DNA of 45,318 bases from a virus: IMG/VR virus record IMGVR_UViG_3300048033_000919, positions 1-45,318 of that record. One strand, written 5' to 3'. Positions 203 to 41,328 of this stretch are shown here, piece by piece. Made by a program: the position numbers and the translations under genes. The notes under the pieces were generated by a model. It saw only the letters and a program-made list of their open reading frames with translations. It made no database searches and was not told the DNA's origin. Position 1 is the stretch's first letter, and every line of letters begins with the position of its first letter.

Positions 203-210
203 TATAAATA
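203..210 (+). promoter_or_regulatory. T4-type late promoter for gp22
   Basis: TATAAATA, the T4 late promoter consensus, lies 37 bases before the gp22 start and 12 bases after the gp21 stop. A strong ribosome binding site (AAAGGAG, 231-237) follows. In T4 this box is read by host RNA polymerase carrying gp55, which is encoded at 6648. Confidence 0.8.
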
Positions 211-246: not shown

Positions 247-1347
247 ATGCTAAAAACATTCTCAGAGCAAATTGCTGAAGAAAAAGAAGTGATGACAGAA
301 GATACAGTATCAGAAGAGTTGGACGCGGTTCAAGCCTCTGAAGATGCAGTTGAAGAGGTTATCGCTGAAGATAAAACAGAAGAAGTCACAGAAGAAACTT
401 CTGAAGAAACTACTGAAGAAGTAGTTGCTGAAGAAGCGACTGAAGAAGACCTCGAAGAAGCAAAGAAATCTGTCAAGTCTGAAGAAGAAGACGAAGACGA
501 AGATGACGATGCTGAAGACGAAGAAGATGGTGATGATGATGAAGAAGAGGAAGCCGAAGAAGGTAAACTCTATGCATCCGCCAAGAAAAAGAAAATGAAA
601 GAAGAAGTAGAAGAAATGAAAGTAGATATGAAGGCTGATGTCGATGCTCTACTTACAGGTTCTGATGCAGAACTTTCAGAAGAATTTAAAGATAAAGCGA
701 CTACTATCTTTGAAGCGGCAGTCAAAGCAAAAGTATCAGAAAGCATTGACAGCATCGTAGAAAAGACAGAAGCAGAATACGAAGCCAAACTTGAAGAAGC
801 CCGTGAAGAACTGGCTGTTAAAGTTGACGATTATCTAAACTACGTTGTTGAAGCGTGGGTACAAGATAACGCACTTGCTATCGAAAAAGGTATTCGTACT
901 GAAATCGCAGAAGAATTTATGGCTGGGTTGAAAAATCTTTTCGTAGAGAACTACATTGATGTTCCTGAAGAGAAAGCAGACCTTGTTGACGAACTTGCTA
1001 CAAAGTCGGATGACCTTGAAGCAAAATTGAACGAAGAATTTGAGAAGTCCGTTGCCATGAAAAAAGAACTAGACGAATTCAAAGCAGAAAAGGCACTTTC
1101 TGAAGCAACAACTGGTCTCGTAGACGTTGATGCTGATAAATTGCGTTCTCTCGCTGAAGGAGTTGAGTTTGAGACTATTGACCAGTACCGTGAGAAGTTA
1201 GAAACTATCAAGGAATCATATTTCCCTAAAGTAAGGGCGACTGGCGCAGAAAAAGAAGAAAGCATTGACGATGGTGCGGCACCTAAAAAAGAGTTGTCGG
1301 AATCAATGTCAGTATATGCTAGAACTCTTTCAAGCATGAGGAAGTAA
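247..1347 (+). CDS. 22: Prohead core scaffolding protein gp22
   Basis: This 366-aa protein forms the inner scaffold of the prohead and is degraded by gp21 during maturation. It lies between gp21 and gp23, as in T4. The N-terminus MLKTFSEQIAEE resembles T4 gp22 and the T4 capsid-targeting sequence, with an I-A-E site at 9-11. Residues about 40-110 are an extremely acidic, low-complexity Glu/Asp stretch that has no equivalent in T4 gp22 as I remember it. The rest is predicted helix and coiled coil rich in E, A and K. It is longer than T4 gp22 (269 aa), mostly because of the acidic stretch. AAAGGAG with a 9-base spacer fixes the start. The C-terminus (SVYARTLSSM) matches the T4 pattern. Confidence 0.9.
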   Translation: MLKTFSEQIAEEKEVMTEDTVSEELDAVQASEDAVEEVIAEDKTEEVTEETSEETTEEVVAEEATEEDLEEAKKSVKSEEEDEDEDDDAEDEEDGDDDEEEEAEEGKLYASAKKKKMKEEVEEMKVDMKADVDALLTGSDAELSEEFKDKATTIFEAAVKAKVSESIDSIVEKTEAEYEAKLEEAREELAVKVDDYLNYVVEAWVQDNALAIEKGIRTEIAEEFMAGLKNLFVENYIDVPEEKADLVDELATKSDDLEAKLNEEFEKSVAMKKELDEFKAEKALSEATTGLVDVDADKLRSLAEGVEFETIDQYREKLETIKESYFPKVRATGAEKEESIDDGAAPKKELSESMSVYARTLSSMRK

Positions 1348-1352
1348 GTCCG

Positions 1353-1360
1353 TATAAATA
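1353..1360 (+). promoter_or_regulatory. T4-type late promoter for gp23
   Basis: TATAAATA sits 6 bases after the gp22 stop and 75 bases before the gp23 start. It would give the major capsid gene its own strong late transcript. The Shine-Dalgarno AAAGGAG is at 1419-1425. Confidence 0.8.
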
Positions 1361-1434: not shown

Positions 1435-2694
1435 ATGTATCTATCAGAAGAATCCCAAAAAAAGTGGGAGCCAATCCTTGAGCATGCCGATGCACCAGCG
1501 ATTGCCGACCCATACAAAAAAGCGGTAACTGCCGTACTCTTGGAAAACCAAGAAAAAGCAATCCGTGAACAGAATGAGCAAATGGGCTTGTTCGAAGCAG
1601 GTCCTCTAAACCAGACTGCTAACGTAAATAACTTTGACCCCGTACTGATTTCATTGGTACGCCGTTCAATGCCACAACTCATTGCATATGACGTTGCAGG
1701 TGTTCAGCCTATGACTGCACCTACAGGTCTTATCTTTGCAATGCGTGCCAAAGACGGTGCAGGCAATGAAGTATTCTACAACGAAGCCGACACAGACTTC
1801 GCTGGTGCAGGTACTCATGCTTCTACAGGTGGCGAAATGGCTGCTGACCCAGATGGCGCAGGTACTGAATTCACAACTGGTACTGGTATGACAACTGGCG
1901 CAGGCGAAGCACTTGGTGCATCAGGCGGCGGTACATTCAACGAAATGCAATTCTCAGTAGAGAAGATTTCTGTTGAAGCCAAAACTCGTGCATTGAAAGC
2001 AGAATACACTGTTGAACTCGCACAAGACTTGAAAGCAGTTCATGGTCTTGACGCAGAAACAGAACTGGCAAACATCTTGTCAGGCGAAATTCTTGCTGAA
2101 ATCAACCGCGAAGTTATGCGTACAATCTATCGTTCTGCTAAACTCGGTGGTAACTCAGGTGCATTCGACCTTACTAACGATTCCGACGGCCGTTGGTCAG
2201 TTGAGCGTTACAAAGGCTTGATGTTCCAAATCGAGCGTGAAGCAAACGCTATTGCTAAAGAAACTCGCCGTGGTAAAGGTAACTTTATCATCTGTTCATC
2301 TGATGTTGCCTCAGCATTGGCAGCCGCAGGTGTTATGGATTATAACCCAGCCCTTAACACTAACCTTAATGTAGACACTACTGGCAACACATTTGCTGGT
2401 GTTCTTAACGGTAAGACCCGTGTATACGTTGACCCATATGCATCTGGTGACTTTGTTGTTACTGGTTACAAAGGTGACAGCGCATACGATGCAGGTATCT
2501 TCTACTGCCCATACGTACCACTACAGATGGTTCGTGCAGTTGGTGAGAACACATTCCAGCCTAAGATTGGATTTAAGACACGCTACGGCATGGTCGCAAA
2601 CCCATTCGCAGAAGGCGGAACAGCAGGTGCAGGCGCATTGAACACACGTTCAAACGTTTACTACAGAGGTTTCTCAGTAAGCAACCTTCTATAA
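1435..2694 (+). CDS. 23: Major capsid protein gp23
   Basis: This 419-aa protein is the HK97-fold hexamer-forming shell protein of the T4-like head. It follows gp21 and gp22 in the canonical order, has its own late promoter and a strong Shine-Dalgarno, and is followed by a strong terminator, as expected for the most abundant virion protein. Recognisable gp23 segments include the FDPVLISLVRR region near residue 68, PMTAPTGLIFAMRA near 93, and the C-terminal GFKTRYGMVANPF. It is shorter than T4 gp23 (521 aa), as in other marine T4-like phages. A gp21-type site, L-F-E then A, at residues 52-55 is a plausible propeptide cut; this cut is inferred. No gp24 paralogue is seen in the window. Confidence 0.96.
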   Translation: MYLSEESQKKWEPILEHADAPAIADPYKKAVTAVLLENQEKAIREQNEQMGLFEAGPLNQTANVNNFDPVLISLVRRSMPQLIAYDVAGVQPMTAPTGLIFAMRAKDGAGNEVFYNEADTDFAGAGTHASTGGEMAADPDGAGTEFTTGTGMTTGAGEALGASGGGTFNEMQFSVEKISVEAKTRALKAEYTVELAQDLKAVHGLDAETELANILSGEILAEINREVMRTIYRSAKLGGNSGAFDLTNDSDGRWSVERYKGLMFQIEREANAIAKETRRGKGNFIICSSDVASALAAAGVMDYNPALNTNLNVDTTGNTFAGVLNGKTRVYVDPYASGDFVVTGYKGDSAYDAGIFYCPYVPLQMVRAVGENTFQPKIGFKTRYGMVANPFAEGGTAGAGALNTRSNVYYRGFSVSNLL

Positions 2695-33327: not shown

Positions 33328-33710
33328 TGACAGAGGACAGGATTCTCTCTCATCTTCATCGACTTGCAATGAAGAGTGAAGGTATTGACGGTGGTCGTGT
33401 TCGCATGGCTGCCGCAGTCGTACATAAAAAGCGAATAGTATCTACGGGTGTAAACAGAATGAAAACACACCCGATTATGTTGAATTCAGGTTATCGCAAC
33501 GGTCAGTATTTTGTTCACGCAGAAGCAGATGCTATTGTTCGTGCAGGTCTAAAAGATTTTTCAGAATATGATTTGTATGTCGTGCGTATTCTAAAGAATG
33601 AAGAGTTTGCACTTGCTAAACCGTGTGACGGTTGTAACGAACTTGTAGGGACTTACAACTTCAGAAATGTATATTATACAACAGATAATGGCACCTTGTC
33701 TGTCTTATAA
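33327..33710 (+). CDS. Second cytidine/dCMP deaminase-like protein
   Basis: The start at ATG 33327 gives 127 aa. An upstream frame extends into the metallopeptidase but lacks support. The motifs VHAEADAI (H64, E66) and KPCDGCN (C100, C103) make a complete zinc deaminase site. It lacks the extra zinc-binding and loop features of dCMP deaminases such as the enzyme at 11168, so its substrate may be different (a free nucleoside, a nucleotide or RNA). Two deaminases with different backgrounds in one phage region are unusual. Confidence 0.75.
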   Translation: MTEDRILSHLHRLAMKSEGIDGGRVRMAAAVVHKKRIVSTGVNRMKTHPIMLNSGYRNGQYFVHAEADAIVRAGLKDFSEYDLYVVRILKNEEFALAKPCDGCNELVGTYNFRNVYYTTDNGTLSVL

Positions 33711-33713
33711 ATA
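33706..33713 (+). promoter_or_regulatory. T4-type late promoter for the 33759-43366 block
   Basis: TATAAATA overlaps the deaminase stop and lies 46 bases before the next gene. It marks the change back to late, virion-type genes. Confidence 0.72.
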
Positions 33714-33758: not shown

Positions 33759-34712
33759 ATGGTAGCAAAAACCTTATCCCAATTCATGGCTGAGGCACAA
33801 GGTCCTGATAGTATCGATGTACTACAGGCAGGTTGTATTGAACTCGGTTTTAAAGACTTTAAGAAACTTAGCGGAAAACGTTTCGCTGTTCTTACCAACG
33901 ATAATAGAGTAGAACTACTCAATAAATTAGCAATGCACTTTGCACAGTTCGGTGCAGTTTATGACCCAGACTTTGGTTCTTCCTCAGTCGGTGGTGTTCG
34001 CATTGGTCCATTCGGCATTTTCGCCGCCCCAAAATCTAAGCAAGGAAAAGCAAGCGCAGGACTTGATAGTGAATTTACGCTAATCAAAATGATTAACGAT
34101 GCACTAGAAGATGGTCCACTTAATATTGTATTCAATGCTGGTAGCAAGAAATTCACAATCCCAAATGCTGTTCGTGCAGAAGGCGCTGGTAGCGACACGA
34201 AAGGTCGTAAGAAATCAGACGTAAACGTATTCGACACTGACGGTAATGTTTACCCACTATCGCTGAAAAAAGATAAAGCAGAGATGTGGGAATCTGCGGA
34301 TTCGTACTATGGCGACAAGATGAAAAAGATTGTCGATAGAGAACTTAAAGCAGGTAATGTTCGTGTAGACCCTCATCCAAAAGTACGTTCAGTATTTACA
34401 ATCACACCAAATCTAGCAGTAAAAGCAAGCGCACAAGAAGTAAAGAATGTTGTATTCGGTTCAGACATTCTGCCTAATGGTGCAGTATTAGAAAAGACAT
34501 TTACAGGCAAATATAAGATTGACGGAGACACAGAAAGTGTTATAATAGATGTCAGTCATATTATTACAAGCCCAAGAGAATTAAAAGGCAACTACGAAGT
34601 ATATTTCTTAATTAGAAATGACAGTTCACGCAAAGGGTCTAAGATACCTGGTTTGCGTGTTCTTGCTGTTAAGAAAACTCGTATCAATCGTAACGTGAAG
34701 GTAGTTAAATAA
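33759..34712 (+). CDS. Probable internal protein, PD-(D/E)XK-like
   Basis: The 317-aa protein starts MVAKTLSQFMAEAQ, which resembles the T4 capsid-targeting sequence, with a gp21-like M-A-E at 10-12. In the middle, SEFTLIKMINDAL (near 104-116) is followed by KKSDVNVFDTDGNVYPLSLKKD (split, 151-172). This E...D...SLK pattern resembles PD-(D/E)XK nucleases. The C-terminal part ends in basic strands (VKKTRINRNVKVV). It has a late promoter and is coupled to the next gene by a one-base overlap. Nuclease activity is inferred only from the motif layout. A promoter-like TTGACG-16-TATAAT (34519-34546) lies inside. Confidence 0.6.
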   Translation: MVAKTLSQFMAEAQGPDSIDVLQAGCIELGFKDFKKLSGKRFAVLTNDNRVELLNKLAMHFAQFGAVYDPDFGSSSVGGVRIGPFGIFAAPKSKQGKASAGLDSEFTLIKMINDALEDGPLNIVFNAGSKKFTIPNAVRAEGAGSDTKGRKKSDVNVFDTDGNVYPLSLKKDKAEMWESADSYYGDKMKKIVDRELKAGNVRVDPHPKVRSVFTITPNLAVKASAQEVKNVVFGSDILPNGAVLEKTFTGKYKIDGDTESVIIDVSHIITSPRELKGNYEVYFLIRNDSSRKGSKIPGLRVLAVKKTRINRNVKVVK

Positions 34713-35965
34713 TGAAGAGTTTCCTAACATATCAACAATTAGATGAGCAAGCAGGTAAGAACTTACACCTTGAGCATTTAGAAGATGAGATTTTAAATAA
34801 CGGCATCAATGGTGGTCGTGCGGCAATTAACTTTTTGCGTTCATTGCGTGACATGCTCAGAGGTGATGCTTCATCCAAAGTAAACGTAACTGTCAAATGG
34901 GACGGTGCGCCAGCAGTTTTCTTTGGTGTTGACCCAGAAGATAATCAGTTTTTTGTTGCAAAGAAGGGTATCTTTAATAAGAACCCTAAAGTATACAAAT
35001 CACATGCAGACATAGACGCAGACACTTCTGGCGACTTGTCAACTAAACTGAAACTATCATTCGACTATCTTTCTAAGTTGAAACTTGGTGGCGATGTATA
35101 TCAAGGTGACTTGATGTTTACTAAAGGCGACCTTGGTTCAGAAACAGTAGATGGTGAAAAACTCATCACATTTCAACCTAACACAATCGTTTATGCAGTG
35201 CCTACTGATAGCGACTTGGGTAAAACAATTAAGAAATCGAAAGTCGGTATTGTAATTCATACGAAGTACAGTGGCGGTCCAACGTTGCAAGATATGAGTG
35301 CATCATTCAATGTTGATGTATCTAAATTCGGTACAGTATCTGGTTTGTGGTACCAAGACGCAGAGTATAAAGATGTGTCTGGTAAAGCAATGCTTACTAA
35401 AAAAGAAACTACAGAACTAGACGTTCTACTTTCAAAAGCAGGTAAAGCATTCAGAGGTATCAATTCACGGGACTTCAATGCACTGCTTAAAATGCAAGAT
35501 ACAATGGAAGGGCAGTTTGCAGGTGCTAAATTAAAGACGTTTATCAACTCAAATATCCGTGAACAAAAGTACCCAAATGCAAAAACTGCCAGTGCTGAAT
35601 ATTATAAATATATTGAAACCTTCATGCAAAAGCAAATTGACAAGGTTAAGACGGACAAGGCGAAAGAGAGCAAAGCAACAATAAGAGACGAATATTTGCG
35701 TCAAGTTAAAAAGAGTGCAAAAACAATCGCCGCACTGTTCGCATTCTATCAGTTGATTATTGATAGTAAATTGCTTTTGGTGCGAAAGTTAGAGAGTGTT
35801 CAGCAATTGACGAAGACTTTCACTCGCACAGATAATGGTTTCGAAGTAACAGAACCTGAGGGTTTTGTAGCAGTTGATAAAGTCGGTGGTAGTGCAGTCA
35901 AATTAGTTGACCGCCTGACATTCTCGTACAATAACTTCACCGCGGCGAAGAATTGGACAAAGTGA
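34712..35965 (+). CDS. Conserved phage protein with ligase-like KxDG motif
   Basis: This 417-aa protein belongs to a family I know as common in marine T4-like phages (I believe DUF6267), without assigned function. It contains VKWDGAP (K62-D64-G65) and FVAKKGIF (81-88), then VYQGDLMF (129-136) and KVGIVIHTKY (177-186). The order KxDG, K/R-x-G, x-G-D/E-L, G-I-V-I-x-x-K parallels nucleotidyltransferase motifs I, Ia/III and IV-V of ATP-dependent ligases. The N-terminus MKSFLTYQQLDEQ carries an L-D-E site at 10-12, suggesting capsid targeting and gp21 cutting. It overlaps the previous gene by one base. Confidence 0.7.
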   Translation: MKSFLTYQQLDEQAGKNLHLEHLEDEILNNGINGGRAAINFLRSLRDMLRGDASSKVNVTVKWDGAPAVFFGVDPEDNQFFVAKKGIFNKNPKVYKSHADIDADTSGDLSTKLKLSFDYLSKLKLGGDVYQGDLMFTKGDLGSETVDGEKLITFQPNTIVYAVPTDSDLGKTIKKSKVGIVIHTKYSGGPTLQDMSASFNVDVSKFGTVSGLWYQDAEYKDVSGKAMLTKKETTELDVLLSKAGKAFRGINSRDFNALLKMQDTMEGQFAGAKLKTFINSNIREQKYPNAKTASAEYYKYIETFMQKQIDKVKTDKAKESKATIRDEYLRQVKKSAKTIAALFAFYQLIIDSKLLLVRKLESVQQLTKTFTRTDNGFEVTEPEGFVAVDKVGGSAVKLVDRLTFSYNNFTAAKNWTK

Positions 35966-35987
35966 AAATCGATAAAGGATAATACAA

Positions 35988-38696
35988 ATGAAAAAGTTTA
36001 AAGACATAAAAGAAGCAAAAGAAAAATCAGTCGTGTTTTCGTTTGGTCGATTTAATCCACCAACAACAGGACATGAGAAAATGATTAAGGCGGCAAGCAA
36101 CATTGCGAAAGCGCAAGGTGCCGACTTGAAGATTTTTCCTTCACAATCGCAAGACCCAAAGAAAAATCCTTTGTCATTCACCGACAAAGTTAAGTTTATG
36201 CGTAAGATGTTTCGTTCTTATGCAAAGAACATTGTCGCAGATAAATCACTAAAAACCACATTTGATGTAATATCAAAACTACACAGCATGGGTTACACAA
36301 GAGTAACTATGGTTGTTGGTGGCGACAGAGTGAATGAGTTTGACAAACTACTCAACAAATATAACGGCAAAGAAGGTCGTCATGGTTTCTATGAGTTTGA
36401 GAACGGCGTAGAAATTAAGTCTGCTGGTAATCGTGCAGACCCAGATAGTGACGAAGCAAAGAAAATGACCGCTGATGCTATGTCGGCATCACTACTACGC
36501 AAAATTGCGGCAGATGGTGACTTTGACACTTTCGTTAAAGGCGTACCAGACACATTGGGCGATACAGACAAGCGTGTATTATTCAACAAAATTCGTAAGG
36601 GTATGAAACTTGCGGCAATCAACGAAATGTTTGAATTGCTGTTTGGTGAAGCACTATTGAATGAAGGTGAGCAAATCTCGGAAGATGCTCCACCAGACCC
36701 AGAAATCGAAAAGTGGTTAGAAAAAGACAAAACAAAATCAGAATTCAAAAGACGCTACGGCGATGACTGGGAAAAAGTCATGTACGCAACAGCGTGGAAA
36801 ATGTATAACGACAAAAACAAAAATGAAGAGTGGAACATTGACGAAGAACTTGATGAAGAGTGGACATACCCGCAACCAAGTGTTGATGAACTATTTGAAG
36901 AATTTGTTGCTGAGGCTGATGAAAAGAAAATCACACCTCAAATTCTAAAAGACATTGAAAAGTATGCAGACAAATTGTTTGCAAAACTAGGTATCGATGT
37001 TGAATTTACAAAACACTTCTTGGACCGTGTGAACGATGCACGAAACAAGAAGCAAATCTCACAATCAGAACTAATTCGTTTGTTCAAGCAAGTACGTCAA
37101 AAGCACGGTAAGAAAATCGCACAGATGGGTCCTGATGCTGAAGCAGTAATGAAGGACATGCAGACTGATGTGAACATGCCGTTCATCTTACAGTGGGATA
37201 AGAAGAACCAAGAACTTGACTTGATTGCAAAGACAGTTATGCGTAAGAAAGGCTTCAAAACGCCTGACCCAGAATACGTTGTTGCAGGTGATGTAAAAGA
37301 AGCAGTCTCAGTTTCACTAGACGGCGACTTCACAATGAAGCAAGACAGAATTGAGAAAGCAGTTAAAGCACTAGATGGTATTTGGGATGGACAGAAGTTT
37401 ACTTTCAAAGATATCGAAAGTGCAGAGAAATTTAAAGATTTAATCGCACAAGAGGCGGTCAGTCCTGCACAACAAGCGGCGATTGCTATTGCTAAGAAAA
37501 AGAAAGAGGGTAAGACACTTAAAGACGTTAAAGAAGCATACATTGCAGAAATCACTTCAAACAATCTACCTCAAATTGGTGACGTTGATGGTGACGGGCA
37601 AGAAGATGACCCATATATGTCAGTGCAAGTACGCTTTGTTCCGTTTGAAGTTAAAATCAAAGGCTTCCCGGCATTCATTCTATGGTCTGAAAGTATCGCA
37701 AATGTACGTTCACATGTTCGTGTAACTCTGAAGTATATGGATGACCTAGAGTACATCCAACGTATTACTGATGCAGAAGCAAGAGCAATGCACAAAAGAC
37801 GTTACGATAAATCACCTGCATCTGCCTCTGTTCTAAGAACAAGAGAAATGGGTGTCGATAGAGATGGTGATGGTGTAGATGACGCATACAAGCAAAGACA
37901 AGACGCATATTACAGAGAAGCACTTGAATACGGTTCAGATGAACTTGTAAAGTCTTACAAGAAAGCAACACCTGGCGAACTTGATGAAGCACCTCGATGG
38001 ATTAAAGAACTTATTGCAAAATACTTTAAGCAAAATAAATACGAAAAAGCGGCACAAGGTCTTCTACGTTATATAGAAAAAGAGGACCCCAAACAGAAGA
38101 AACATTCACTAGACTATTATGCTGGTGAAGTTGTTCGTATGGTAGGTTCTACCCTAGATGCTCGTATTCTTGCAAAGACAGCAAAAAAGATTATGGCGGC
38201 AGAAGCAGTATTCTACGCTAAAGAAAACAACATTCCGTTACACAGTGTATATCGCCCTCATTCAGAGATGTATTATGAACTCTTTGATGTTGCAAGAGAG
38301 TTGAATATTATTGTAGAAGGGACGGATAAATACTTGTTAGAAGATACCAATATTGGTGAATTTGAACGTTATGATGGTGAATTTGTTCCGCTTGACATTC
38401 CTCTTGTAGAAGACTACATTGAAGAAGAAGCAGAATTGAATTCTCCTAAACGAGGCGGGTCAAAGAAATTTTATGTATATGTAAAGAATGATAAAGGTAA
38501 TGTTGTGAAAGTCTCATTTGGTGACACAAGTGGTTTGAAAGCAAAAATCAACGACAAAGAAGCGGCGAAGAATTTTGCATCACGCCATCAATGTGACACA
38601 AAGAAAGACAAAACAACGCCGGGTTATTGGGCATGTCGCTTGCCGATGTATGCTAAAGAACTTGGACTTGAGGGTGGAGGGGATTACTTTTGGTAA
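35988..38696 (+). CDS. Large multidomain protein: nucleotidyltransferase plus others
   Basis: The 902-aa protein begins MKKFKDIKEAKEK (I-K-E at 7-9, capsid-targeting-like). Residues about 14-215 are a nucleotidyltransferase of the HIGH superfamily: FSFGRFNPPTTGHE (17-30), VVGGDRVNEF near 104 and MSASLLRKIA near 165. A KxxFxxRYGDxWxxVMYATA helix follows (near 245). The part around 345-425 (FTKHFLDRVNDARNKKQ) is a separate domain found in marine phages. Two DxDGDG loops (532-541, 624-632) look like calcium sites. The C-terminal 80 residues (KFYVYVKNDKGNVVKVSFGD) are another widespread phage module. Linkers contain many (I/L)-x-E sites, so it may be a packaged protein that gp21 splits. The exact enzyme activity is unknown. 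Confidence 0.7.
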   Translation: MKKFKDIKEAKEKSVVFSFGRFNPPTTGHEKMIKAASNIAKAQGADLKIFPSQSQDPKKNPLSFTDKVKFMRKMFRSYAKNIVADKSLKTTFDVISKLHSMGYTRVTMVVGGDRVNEFDKLLNKYNGKEGRHGFYEFENGVEIKSAGNRADPDSDEAKKMTADAMSASLLRKIAADGDFDTFVKGVPDTLGDTDKRVLFNKIRKGMKLAAINEMFELLFGEALLNEGEQISEDAPPDPEIEKWLEKDKTKSEFKRRYGDDWEKVMYATAWKMYNDKNKNEEWNIDEELDEEWTYPQPSVDELFEEFVAEADEKKITPQILKDIEKYADKLFAKLGIDVEFTKHFLDRVNDARNKKQISQSELIRLFKQVRQKHGKKIAQMGPDAEAVMKDMQTDVNMPFILQWDKKNQELDLIAKTVMRKKGFKTPDPEYVVAGDVKEAVSVSLDGDFTMKQDRIEKAVKALDGIWDGQKFTFKDIESAEKFKDLIAQEAVSPAQQAAIAIAKKKKEGKTLKDVKEAYIAEITSNNLPQIGDVDGDGQEDDPYMSVQVRFVPFEVKIKGFPAFILWSESIANVRSHVRVTLKYMDDLEYIQRITDAEARAMHKRRYDKSPASASVLRTREMGVDRDGDGVDDAYKQRQDAYYREALEYGSDELVKSYKKATPGELDEAPRWIKELIAKYFKQNKYEKAAQGLLRYIEKEDPKQKKHSLDYYAGEVVRMVGSTLDARILAKTAKKIMAAEAVFYAKENNIPLHSVYRPHSEMYYELFDVARELNIIVEGTDKYLLEDTNIGEFERYDGEFVPLDIPLVEDYIEEEAELNSPKRGGSKKFYVYVKNDKGNVVKVSFGDTSGLKAKINDKEAAKNFASRHQCDTKKDKTTPGYWACRLPMYAKELGLEGGGDYFW

Positions 38697-38959
38697 ACCC
38701 ATATGATGATATCGATAGTATCAGAGTTTTCTCTAAAGACGTACTACCAGAAAATCTAGTCTGGCATAGAGACAAGGCTGATAGAATTGTAACAGTGCTA
38801 GAAGGTTCTGGTTGGAAGTTTCAGAGAGATAACGAACTACCATTTGAATTGCACCCCGGTGATATGTTCTTTATAGAAGCATTTGAGTATCATAGAATTA
38901 TTAAAGGCAACAACGAATTAAAAATAAAAATCGAGGAGAAAAGAGATGTCAATGTTTAA
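38690..38959 (+). CDS. Small cupin-fold protein
   Basis: The 89-aa protein has the cupin pattern: WHRDKADRIVTVLEGSGW (H26, D28, E38), ELHPGDMFFI (H55-D58) and EYHRI (H68). The start is TTG at 38690 with GGAGGGG at 38676-38682; no ATG is suitably placed. It may bind a metal and a small ligand. It overlaps the long gene upstream by seven bases and the next by fourteen, so its translation is coupled with virion-type genes. Confidence 0.65.
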   Translation: MVNPYDDIDSIRVFSKDVLPENLVWHRDKADRIVTVLEGSGWKFQRDNELPFELHPGDMFFIEAFEYHRIIKGNNELKIKIEEKRDVNV

Positions 38960-40007
38960 TGACCCGCTAACAAAAGCACTTGCTGGAGTTGCACAAAACA
39001 TTATGGAAAAGAAAGTCATGTGCGAAGCATGTGGCAAGATGCACGAAGAAGGTTCGTGTGGTATGACTGAAGGTAAGATGTCAGAACTAGATATGGCTGG
39101 TACTGAACTTATCAAGTACGCAAAGAAAAATGGTGGAATCGATAAGAAAGATTTCTTCAAAGCGGCAGAACTAATTCAAAAGGGCGACTTACCCAAACTT
39201 GTCAAGTTTACAAATAACCTAGACACTGAACCAAGAGACCTTATCATTATGATGGTTGCAGATGCGATTGGTGTCAAACAGGCTGGTAAACTATTCAAAG
39301 TAAGTATTCGTGCATCAAAGATGTATGAAACACTCGACAAAGCAGGACTTAAAGAAGAACTTGAAAAAGATGCTGATGACCCATGTTGGAAGGGTTACGT
39401 TCAGGTTGGTATGAAAAAAGGCAAAGACGGTAAAGAAGTACCGAATTGCGTACCAATGGATGAAGCATTCGAATTGCCAGAAGACTTGCAGGACGAAGAC
39501 GTAGGTGACTTTGTTGTTGCCGCGGCTGCCGCTAAAAAAGCAGGCAAGAAGAAGTTCAAGTTTGGTGGTAAAGAGTTTCCTGTAACAATCAAAACTGATA
39601 TCAAAACTGAAGGTTTCGAAGGTTGCAAAGACTGCGAACTAACAGAAGAGAAAGTTGAATGCCCAAAGTGTAAGGGCGAAGGTTGCGAACACTGTGACGG
39701 TAAAGGTTACCACGAAAAAGACTTAAAAGAGTACGGTTATGTCAAATCAAACTATACAGTCAAGCACAAAACATTCTCATCTGCAATTCAACATGCAGTA
39801 GAAATGGCGGCAAAGAAGGGTTACGAAGTTGACCCAGACGATTACGATGCAAAAGTAGCACTAGGTCCAAAGAAACCTTCAAAAGGTAAAACCAATTCCT
39901 ATTCACTCAAACTGACTAAGAATGGTAAAGAACAACGTAAAGCATTGCAGGTTCAAATCGCAAACTTGGATAACAAGTTTTTTGAACTCAACATGTACAT
40001 TCAATAG
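38946..40007 (+). CDS. Probable internal protein with cysteine zinc clusters
   Basis: The 353-aa protein has an N-terminal segment ending IMEKK (I-M-E, 19-21), then CEACGKMHEEGSC (26-38), a probable zinc site. Residues about 145-168 have DDPCWKGYVQVGMKKGKDGK, a sequence I know from marine phage proteins. A DnaJ-like cysteine block CPKCKGEGCEHCDGKG is near 240-255. The C-terminus is basic and beta-rich. Function is unknown; the place among capsid-targeted proteins suggests a virion or internal component. It overlaps the cupin gene by 14 bases. Confidence 0.6.
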   Translation: MSMFNDPLTKALAGVAQNIMEKKVMCEACGKMHEEGSCGMTEGKMSELDMAGTELIKYAKKNGGIDKKDFFKAAELIQKGDLPKLVKFTNNLDTEPRDLIIMMVADAIGVKQAGKLFKVSIRASKMYETLDKAGLKEELEKDADDPCWKGYVQVGMKKGKDGKEVPNCVPMDEAFELPEDLQDEDVGDFVVAAAAAKKAGKKKFKFGGKEFPVTIKTDIKTEGFEGCKDCELTEEKVECPKCKGEGCEHCDGKGYHEKDLKEYGYVKSNYTVKHKTFSSAIQHAVEMAAKKGYEVDPDDYDAKVALGPKKPSKGKTNSYSLKLTKNGKEQRKALQVQIANLDNKFFELNMYIQ

Positions 40008-40018
40008 GAATTAATATT

Positions 40019-40765
40019 ATGTCAAACGTAAACGATTTTAAAAGCATGAGAAACATAGGTAACGCTTATGTTGAAATGCGTAAAAAAGAAGTAGAGGCGG
40101 CGCAAGCGAAAGCAGAAGCGGCACAAACTGTTGTAGAAAAAGAAACTGCACCAACGCCCGCAGATGCGACAGTTGAACCAACTGAAGTGAAAGAAGAAGT
40201 TATTCCTCAGAAAAGTGGCGCACAAGCATTCAAACAAGGTTCTTCAGCAAAGTTGCAGAAGACACATGCTAGTAATTTAAAGACTGCTATCAAAAAATCA
40301 CAGTCACTAACGGCTGGTGATGAAGAACCTGAAGATGAAAAAGATACTAAGAAAGCGAAGAATAAAGTAACTATCAATCCCGATTTGAAAGAAGACGGGC
40401 ACACTGATGTTTCTTCTGCTATTCGTAAATGCAAGACTATTGTAGAAGACGCACAAGAAATTATGACTGCACTTCAGGCAATGGGCGCAGAAGGTGACTT
40501 GCCTACTTGGTGGACAAACAAAATGGCTGTTTCTGCAAACTCCTTGAATAGTATGCGTGACTACATTAAGAACCCATCTGAAGTAACCGAAGAAACTTTA
40601 ACAGAGAAGCCTGCAGGTTGGATTGCGATTTACAACGGTAAATCACTAGAAATTAGAATTGACAAAGATGCAAAAGATTTGTTTACTGCAAAGCAATTTG
40701 CAATCAGCCACTTTAAAGTGCCGAAATCTAAGCAAGGTCTTCTAGCAATCGCACCAGCATATTAA
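40019..40765 (+). CDS. Conserved marine phage protein, unknown function
   Basis: The 248-aa protein has a helical, Ala/Glu-rich first half with a basic Lys/Ser segment, then a compact domain from about residue 125 (GHTDVSSAIRKCKTIVEDAQ), WWTNKMAVSANSLNSMRDY near 169, and a C-terminal beta segment (WIAIYNGKSLEIRI). The SWW/TWW plus SANSLNSxRDY pattern recurs in marine T4-like phages. Function is unknown. It is spaced 11 bases from both neighbours. Confidence 0.58.
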   Translation: MSNVNDFKSMRNIGNAYVEMRKKEVEAAQAKAEAAQTVVEKETAPTPADATVEPTEVKEEVIPQKSGAQAFKQGSSAKLQKTHASNLKTAIKKSQSLTAGDEEPEDEKDTKKAKNKVTINPDLKEDGHTDVSSAIRKCKTIVEDAQEIMTALQAMGAEGDLPTWWTNKMAVSANSLNSMRDYIKNPSEVTEETLTEKPAGWIAIYNGKSLEIRIDKDAKDLFTAKQFAISHFKVPKSKQGLLAIAPAY

Positions 40766-40776
40766 GGGTTACTTCA

Positions 40777-41328
40777 ATGAAAACAGTAGCAGATTTTCTA
40801 AAAGAGGCAGAGGGTGATAATGGTCTCCCGCAGATTTACTGCGATATGGATATGGTTCTTGTTGACTTCATTGGTGGTGCAGATAAAGCACTTGCTGATG
40901 CAGGAGAAAAAGGTAGATTTGCTGAAAAGGGCGAACACAATCATAAAGATAAAAAGTGGGAAATTCTGAAAGGGGTACCTAAGTTTTGGGCGAAATTAAA
41001 ACCAATGCCAGATGGACTGGCGTTATTCAAGTTCATCAAAAAATTCAACCCATATATACTTTCAACTCCATCAAAAAGGATGCCCACAAGCAAACCAGAG
41101 AAGAAAGAATGGCTGAAGAAAAATCTTGGTATGAAGAACATAAAAGGCGTTCATCTAGTACCAAGAGAAGACAAACAAAAATGGGCAGTTACGAATGGTA
41201 CGCCTAATATTTTGATTGACGATTACATTAAGAACATTAGAGAATGGGAAGCAAAAGGCGGTATTGGTGTGCATCATACATCTACTGCAAAAAGCATTGC
41301 GAAATTGAAAAAACTAGGATTTAAATAA
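40777..41328 (+). CDS. HAD-like 5'(3')-deoxyribonucleotidase-type protein
   Basis: The 183-aa protein begins MKTVADFLKEAEG (L-K-E at 8-10, capsid-targeting-like). HAD motif I is CDMDMVLVDF (D23, D25), motif II is around YILSTPS (near 93), motif III near KKEWLKKNLG, and motif IV is NILIDDY (near 148). HAD nucleotidases remove the phosphate of nucleotides. Combined with the N-terminal signal, it may be packaged and delivered with the DNA; this is inference. Confidence 0.75.
   Translation: MKTVADFLKEAEGDNGLPQIYCDMDMVLVDFIGGADKALADAGEKGRFAEKGEHNHKDKKWEILKGVPKFWAKLKPMPDGLALFKFIKKFNPYILSTPSKRMPTSKPEKKEWLKKNLGMKNIKGVHLVPREDKQKWAVTNGTPNILIDDYIKNIREWEAKGGIGVHHTSTAKSIAKLKKLGFK

Follow-up and report, generated by a model that had tools for sequence, protein, structure and literature searches.

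Capsid-targeting-like N-termini of T4 type on a late gene module of a T4-like myophage genome fragment

The virus record IMGVR_UViG_3300048033_000919 (the window, meaning the whole analysed stretch of 45,318 bases) represents part of the genome of a T4-like myophage; it has the gp22 and gp23 head genes at its start and also contains replication genes. We describe here a late gene cluster at 33759–41328, four of whose products, those of three open reading frames (ORF1, ORF2 and ORF3) and of a HAD protein gene, begin with 9–12 residues that resemble the T4 capsid-targeting sequence and end in a putative site for the gp21 head protease; these N-termini are referred to below as tags. The same cluster lies between the gp41 helicase and gp61 primase genes of Methylophilales phage Melnitz, Pelagibacter phage HTVC008M and several cyanophages. 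We propose, with a probability of about 0.83, that the tags serve as capsid-targeting sequences of the T4 type and that the late module encodes exchangeable cargo proteins, which would be trimmed by gp21 and ejected with the DNA.

Table 1. Positions of the module genes, head genes, late promoters and N-terminal tags in the window; a slash marks the predicted cut.
Feature	Position	Strand	Description
ORF1	33759..34712	+	317 residues, phrog_12709 protein
ORF2	34712..35965	+	417 residues, DUF6267 (PF19782), E=9.6e-105
ORF3	35988..38696	+	902 residues; cytidylyltransferase/NMNAT-like domain and further domains (phrog_23027, phrog_7595)
Small cupin-like protein	38690..38959	+	Untagged, within the module
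Module gene	38946..40007	+	353 residues, without clear tag, N-terminus MSMFNDPLTKALAGVAQNIMEKK
Module gene	40019..40765	+	248 residues, without clear tag
HAD protein	40777..41328	+	HAD/NT5C-like 5'-3' deoxyribonucleotidase, 183 residues; phrog_2643 E=8.9e-23
gp22	247..1347	+	Scaffold (T4_CASP), E=2.5e-67
gp23	1435..2694	+	Major capsid protein
T4-type late promoter	33706..33713	+	TATAAATA, 46 bp upstream of ORF1
T4-type late promoter	203..210	+	TATAAATA, upstream of gp22
T4-type late promoter	1353..1360	+	TATAAATA, upstream of gp23
ORF1 tag	33759..33794	+	MVAKTLSQFMAE/A, site E12
ORF2 tag	34712..34747	+	MKSFLTYQQLDE/Q, site E12
ORF3 tag	35988..36014	+	MKKFKDIKE/A, site E9
HAD protein tag	40777..40806	+	MKTVADFLKE/A, site E10; register as in T4 MKTYQEFIAE/A
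gp22 N-terminus	247-279	+	MLKTFSEQIAE/E, site E11

N-terminal tags and head genes of the window

The four cargo tags, written out, read MVAKTLSQFMAEA, MKTVADFLKEA, MKSFLTYQQLDEQA and MKKFKDIKEA. A preliminary description of this DNA had quoted these N-termini together with that of gp22, and all five are present where it placed them and terminate in [ILM]-x-E; the residue ahead of the x is L or I, as in the gp21 site [LI]-x-E, with M taking its place in ORF1. In T4 the targeting function of the tag is controlled by residues 4 and 7 and its processing by residues 8 and 10 (PMC9026906). The hydrophobic pair that T4 has at positions 4 and 7 is complete in ORF1 and the HAD protein, partial in ORF2 and gp22, and in ORF3 present only in a form shorter by one residue.

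The [ILM]xE site by itself is weak and was rejected as evidence, as its relaxed form occurs at ~8% of internal methionine windows in the genome of cyanophage S-CREM2. A fuller, T4-spaced core motif was defined as [FYLIVM]xxF[ILMFV]xE within residues 1–14. It is found in the window at ORF1, the HAD protein and one spurious antisense ORF, and over the whole T4 genome at IPII, IPIII and two spurious starts. When the 54 window genes were ranked with an N-terminus scoring matrix trained solely on T4 and S-CREM2 sequences (p-values against internal 18-mers), ORF1 came first (p=8e-5), gp22 second (8e-5), the HAD protein third (6e-4) and ORF2 fourth (p=0.01). ORF2 and ORF3 are the weaker cases and are therefore supported at the family level only.

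The coding sequence of gp21 falls upstream of the first base of the window, and it was read instead from contig L241, which is near-identical to the window (gp23 is 97% identical) and encodes a prohead protease of the Peptidase_S77 family (E=4.5e-35) upstream of an almost identical gp22. The window gp23 has a propeptide site, LFE/AG, at codons 52–54 (1588–1596), and in an alignment of 37 gp23 proteins the position at which T4 is cut mostly has [LMI]xE, with A (or T) as the usual next residue; from this site gp23 is presumably cut in the window phage. A small gene between the portal and gp21 genes (L241, 2317-2721) has an in-frame start that gives a tag-like N-terminus, MRTFKDFKNSLKEEFDD, a further one within the group of prohead core genes.

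Of the late promoter sequence TATAAATA the window has 11 copies where 2.6 are expected; none of 100 shuffles reached 11, and the copy before ORF1 is kept in seven relatives. This arrangement predicts that the module is expressed late, alongside the head genes.

The tag in relatives and in metagenomic sequences

The tag behaves as an N-terminal extension that is added to some proteins and missing from their homologues. The ORF1 homologues of Mendera, S-8S55 and KVP40 start straight at the domain, as do the untagged DUF6267 proteins of S-PM2, P-HM1 and S-8S55, and in AlphaFold models the tag lies outside the predicted folds (ORF1 residues 1-13 and ORF2 residues 1-19, predicted local distance difference test <50). 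Which proteins are tagged varies by lineage. Melnitz also encodes a RimK-like ATP-grasp protein (L099, 82-1131) with a strong tag, MTQKFSQFITEE, that is not in the main module.

Across the window lineage, Melnitz and their metagenomic relatives the letters of the tag vary and the pattern stays, with variants such as MKSFLTYQQLDEQ, MLNFSGYLAED and MIKFSSFITED on DUF6267 proteins, MKKFKDIKEA, MKTFREIREA and MAKLLSNFRTRLNEA on cytidylyltransferases, and MKTVADFLKEA and MKTLKDILSEA on HAD proteins. Orthologues from IMG/VR loci show the pattern in 69 of 87 distinct N-termini of the module families, against 46 of 279 of non-module families; the two orthologue groups of ORF3 have it in 7/7 and 16/17 such N-termini.

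A blind scan of IMG/VR DNA for M-K-x-F-x-x-F-[FLIM]-x-E preceded by a ribosome-binding site, with a control in which the residue order was reversed, recovered at least 120 tagged stretches, against 5 for the control. Judged by these comparisons of sequence, the tag pattern beyond the bare [ILM]xE is not due to chance. Among 80 loci from the scan, 59 have T4-like homologues or homologues in the window, Melnitz or HTVC phages, and 38 have homologues of module genes (control, 0/5). Alignment of 54 tagged proteins leaves M1, K2, F4, F7 and E10 as the only invariant columns, all of them preset by the search. Tagged genes concentrate in the gp41–gp61 interval on many unrelated proteins, and the tagged families among the matches listed include DUF6267, cytidylyltransferases, zeta/AAA_33 kinases, HAD, NUDIX, DUF192 and HiPIP proteins, most of the rest being unknowns. 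The slot directly upstream of DUF6267, where ORF1 lies in the window, is occupied by at least six different tagged proteins (L126, L130, L140, L158, L171 and L180), and hhalign detected no homology of ORF1 to the tagged protein that Melnitz and HTVC008M have in this slot.

Some small tagged proteins with YHGTS, HYTS or YHAT motifs (L135, 3965-4420, with a phrog_5470 match at 6e-4; L137, 659-1219; L151, 10446-10832) resemble ADP-ribosyltransferases or RNA 2'-phosphotransferases and are reminiscent of T4 Alt.

Virion proteomes and alternative explanations

Mass spectrometry identified 52 virion proteins in S-CREM2 (PMC10665884). The core motif is present in five genes of that genome, encoding a SAM lyase (gp6), gp13, a kinase (gp14), gp136 and a cytidylyltransferase (gp154); all five products were detected in virions, and classical structural proteins are not among them (hypergeometric P=4.4e-5, counted over the non-structural genes). 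The cytidylyltransferase was also detected in virions of S-SM1 (PMC3037559) and, labelled as NMNAT, of S-SCSM1 (PMC9602691). These three virion proteins are related to the N-terminal domain of ORF3 and are tagged (S-SM1 MKKFSAFLNEA, S-CREM2 MKNFSSFLTEA, S-SCSM1 MKSFLQFLKEA), the S-SM1 and S-SCSM1 N-termini having been read only after their virion detection was known. According to PMC10665884 a kinase is reported in S-CRM01 virions as well; its N-terminus is MISFDQFLSEK and its gene lies inside the module, the S-CREM2 kinase cassette being located elsewhere. In S-SCSM1 the module genes 89–93 are annotated as virion proteins.

S-SCSM1 proteins 89 and 90 (L237, 3278-8756) start with MDSKTFNSLSEA and MATVAETLLALNE, which are more loosely tag-like, and 92 and 93 are untagged. 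S-CREM2 gp12, S-CRM01 g128 and S-N03 gp138 have a capsid-targeting-like stretch at about residues 18–27 behind a similar leader (SRWxxWxxG; L102, 7704-10313; L239, 6422-6973; L240, 6243-9161), and S-CREM2 gp12 is annotated as Cas9-like and is present in virions.

Several results weigh against head targeting of the tagged proteins. The motif version with F at position 7 was settled after the S-CREM2 virion N-termini had been seen, and a looser, purely T4-derived pattern finds five virion and five non-virion genes in that genome (P=0.0065). The virion-detected S-CREM2 module proteins gp155 and gp156 have no clear tag, and the authors of the S-CREM2 and S-SCSM1 studies considered such proteins to be possible co-purifying contaminants (PMC10665884, PMC9602691). 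The virion evidence comes from the proteomes of relatives, and for the window phage the location in the head is a prediction. Among the 54 window genes the ORF3 N-terminus is not significant by itself in the matrix scoring, and some ORF1 orthologues (L010-L013, L016 and L017) have the glutamate one residue early (FMEQ, FVEN). Since the glutamate is off-register in these, conservation seems stronger in the targeting half of the tag than in the half for cleavage.

The tagged proteins could instead be scaffold or internal structural parts of the prohead core that are not delivered to the next host, as suggested by the assembly defects of T4 IPIII mutants and by the presence in the same module of genes for other virion proteins, an S-layer-like one among them. 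We consider this improbable, as most of the tagged cargo resembles enzymes and it varies from phage to phage, unlike a structural part, and T4 Alt and IPI work in the host after ejection. It is less probable still that these are abundant late cytoplasmic enzymes that co-purify with virions and whose N-termini have another role, for instance in degradation (a degron) or as a contact in assembly: the proteins are indeed late and the concern was raised for two proteomes, but the tagged proteins are the ones that recur in virions of S-CREM2, S-SM1 and S-SCSM1, and the tag is in T4 register and ends in a gp21-type site. A chance or compositional likeness, in which look-alikes were picked from Lys- and Glu-rich helical N-termini, would fit the frequency of the bare [ILM]xE and the score of ORF3 alone, but it is very unlikely and was rejected on the reversed-order control scan and the comparison of families, to which the five of five S-CREM2 virion proteins can be added.

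Cargo, proposed mechanism and comparison with known systems

The preliminary description had listed the cargo as a nuclease-like protein, a ligase-like protein, a nucleotidyltransferase and a HAD phosphatase. Family searches support the latter two: the N-terminal domain of ORF3 matches Pfam CTP_transf_like (25.1 bits, cut-off 21) and phrog_395 (E=3e-54), and the HAD protein, besides its phrog match, reaches 20.0 bits with Pfam NT5C (E=7e-4), below the cut-off of 24.8. The first two are based on motifs. ORF1 has invariant E105, D154 and S168-x-K170 and is a possible PD-(D/E)xK nuclease, and ORF2, in which KWDG (K62-G65) is invariant in 17 sequences, is possibly a covalent nucleotidyltransferase or ligase. 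Foldseek comparison of AlphaFold models with the PDB, from shallow alignments, gave no significant match for ORF1 and none for ORF2, where T4 Rnl2 was in the top 50 at E>=0.45, and a sequence search of the PDB for these folds gave nothing useful. As a relative's cytidylyltransferase is annotated as NMNAT (NAD synthesis), the earlier description of the cargo as enzymes for nucleic acids or nucleotides may be too restrictive.

In ORF3 the [ILM]xE sites are found only in linkers and not in the three recognised domains (0/15 vs 15/62 glutamates, P=0.026), and the C-terminal domain is a separate gene in HTVC008M. ORF3 may be a polyprotein that is packaged and cut by gp21, a reading that remains a lead because the linkers are acidic.

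We envisage that the four tagged proteins would be made late from the T4-type promoter, and that their first 9–12 residues, hydrophobic at T4 positions 4 and 7, would bind the gp22 scaffold core and bring the enzymes into the prohead. The gp21 protease would then cleave after [ILMF]-x-E, the type of site present in the gp23 propeptide, freeing the enzymes within the head, and these would exit with the DNA at infection and be active in the cell ahead of any phage gene expression. The enclosure in the prohead that was proposed earlier holds up well as far as capsid targeting is concerned, through the match to the T4 signal, its addition to unrelated proteins and the virion proteomes of relatives, with further support from the late promoter, the gp21 homologue and the gp23 propeptide with the same type of site. 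Core binding, cutting in this phage and a function in the host we infer, and the nuclease and ligase activities are predictions. Ejection with the DNA is drawn by analogy from T4; given the T4-like label and the presence of tagged relatives in purified virions, the enzymes therefore probably enter the host together with the viral DNA.

We also lean, by a small margin over even odds, towards a broader proposal, that marine T4-like phages have in their gp41–gp61 interval a swappable island for injected effectors, in which a ten-residue tag makes any enzyme into cargo and the contents would serve takeover in the first minutes and counter-defence. Candidate contents are NMNAT-like proteins, SAM lyase, deoxynucleotidase, kinases, NUDIX and ADP-ribosyl-type proteins, and the tag would make the injected set readable from sequence. 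Cyanophage virion proteomes repeatedly hold unexpected enzymes that their authors could not assign to either cargo or contamination, and a recognisable head-loading tag supplies both a mechanism and a direct test for enzymes in virions. If the proposal is true, the proteins injected before transcription by some abundant ocean phages would be predictable from metagenomes.

A search of the open literature, within its accessible parts, found no report of such a tag in marine phages; papers that contain the phrase 'capsid targeting sequence' concern, judged by title and abstract, T4, P1, SPN3US, P22 or T4-based platforms. Head ejection proteins of the giant phages SPN3US and phiKZ likewise have propeptides cut after glutamate and are ejected with the DNA, but the protease is only distantly related and the motif is another one, the comparison being one of descriptions. 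The closest counterparts with mass-spectrometry virion evidence are the tagged NMNAT/cytidylyltransferase, SAM lyase and kinase of the cyanophages S-SM1, S-SCSM1, S-CREM2 and S-CRM01, whose publications propose no packaging mechanism and partly suspect contamination; in S-SM1, S-SCSM1 and S-CRM01 the cytidylyltransferase gene also lies in the neighbourhood that it has in the window.

T4 Alt is likewise a head-packaged enzyme delivered with the DNA, with an N-terminal propeptide removed by gp21. Its tag, MELITELFDED, is less similar, and Alt is an ADP-ribosyltransferase whereas the window cargo is not, although by eye some of the tagged IMG/VR proteins resemble one. The T4 internal proteins IPI, IPII and IPIII (MKTYQEFIAE/A) match the window tags in length, in register, in the hydrophobic residues at 4 and 7 and in the E-A site, and in both the tag can be separated from its cargo. 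T4 has a few small basic internal proteins with scattered genes, whereas the window phage has several unrelated enzymes in one late module, with cargo that is swapped among its relatives.

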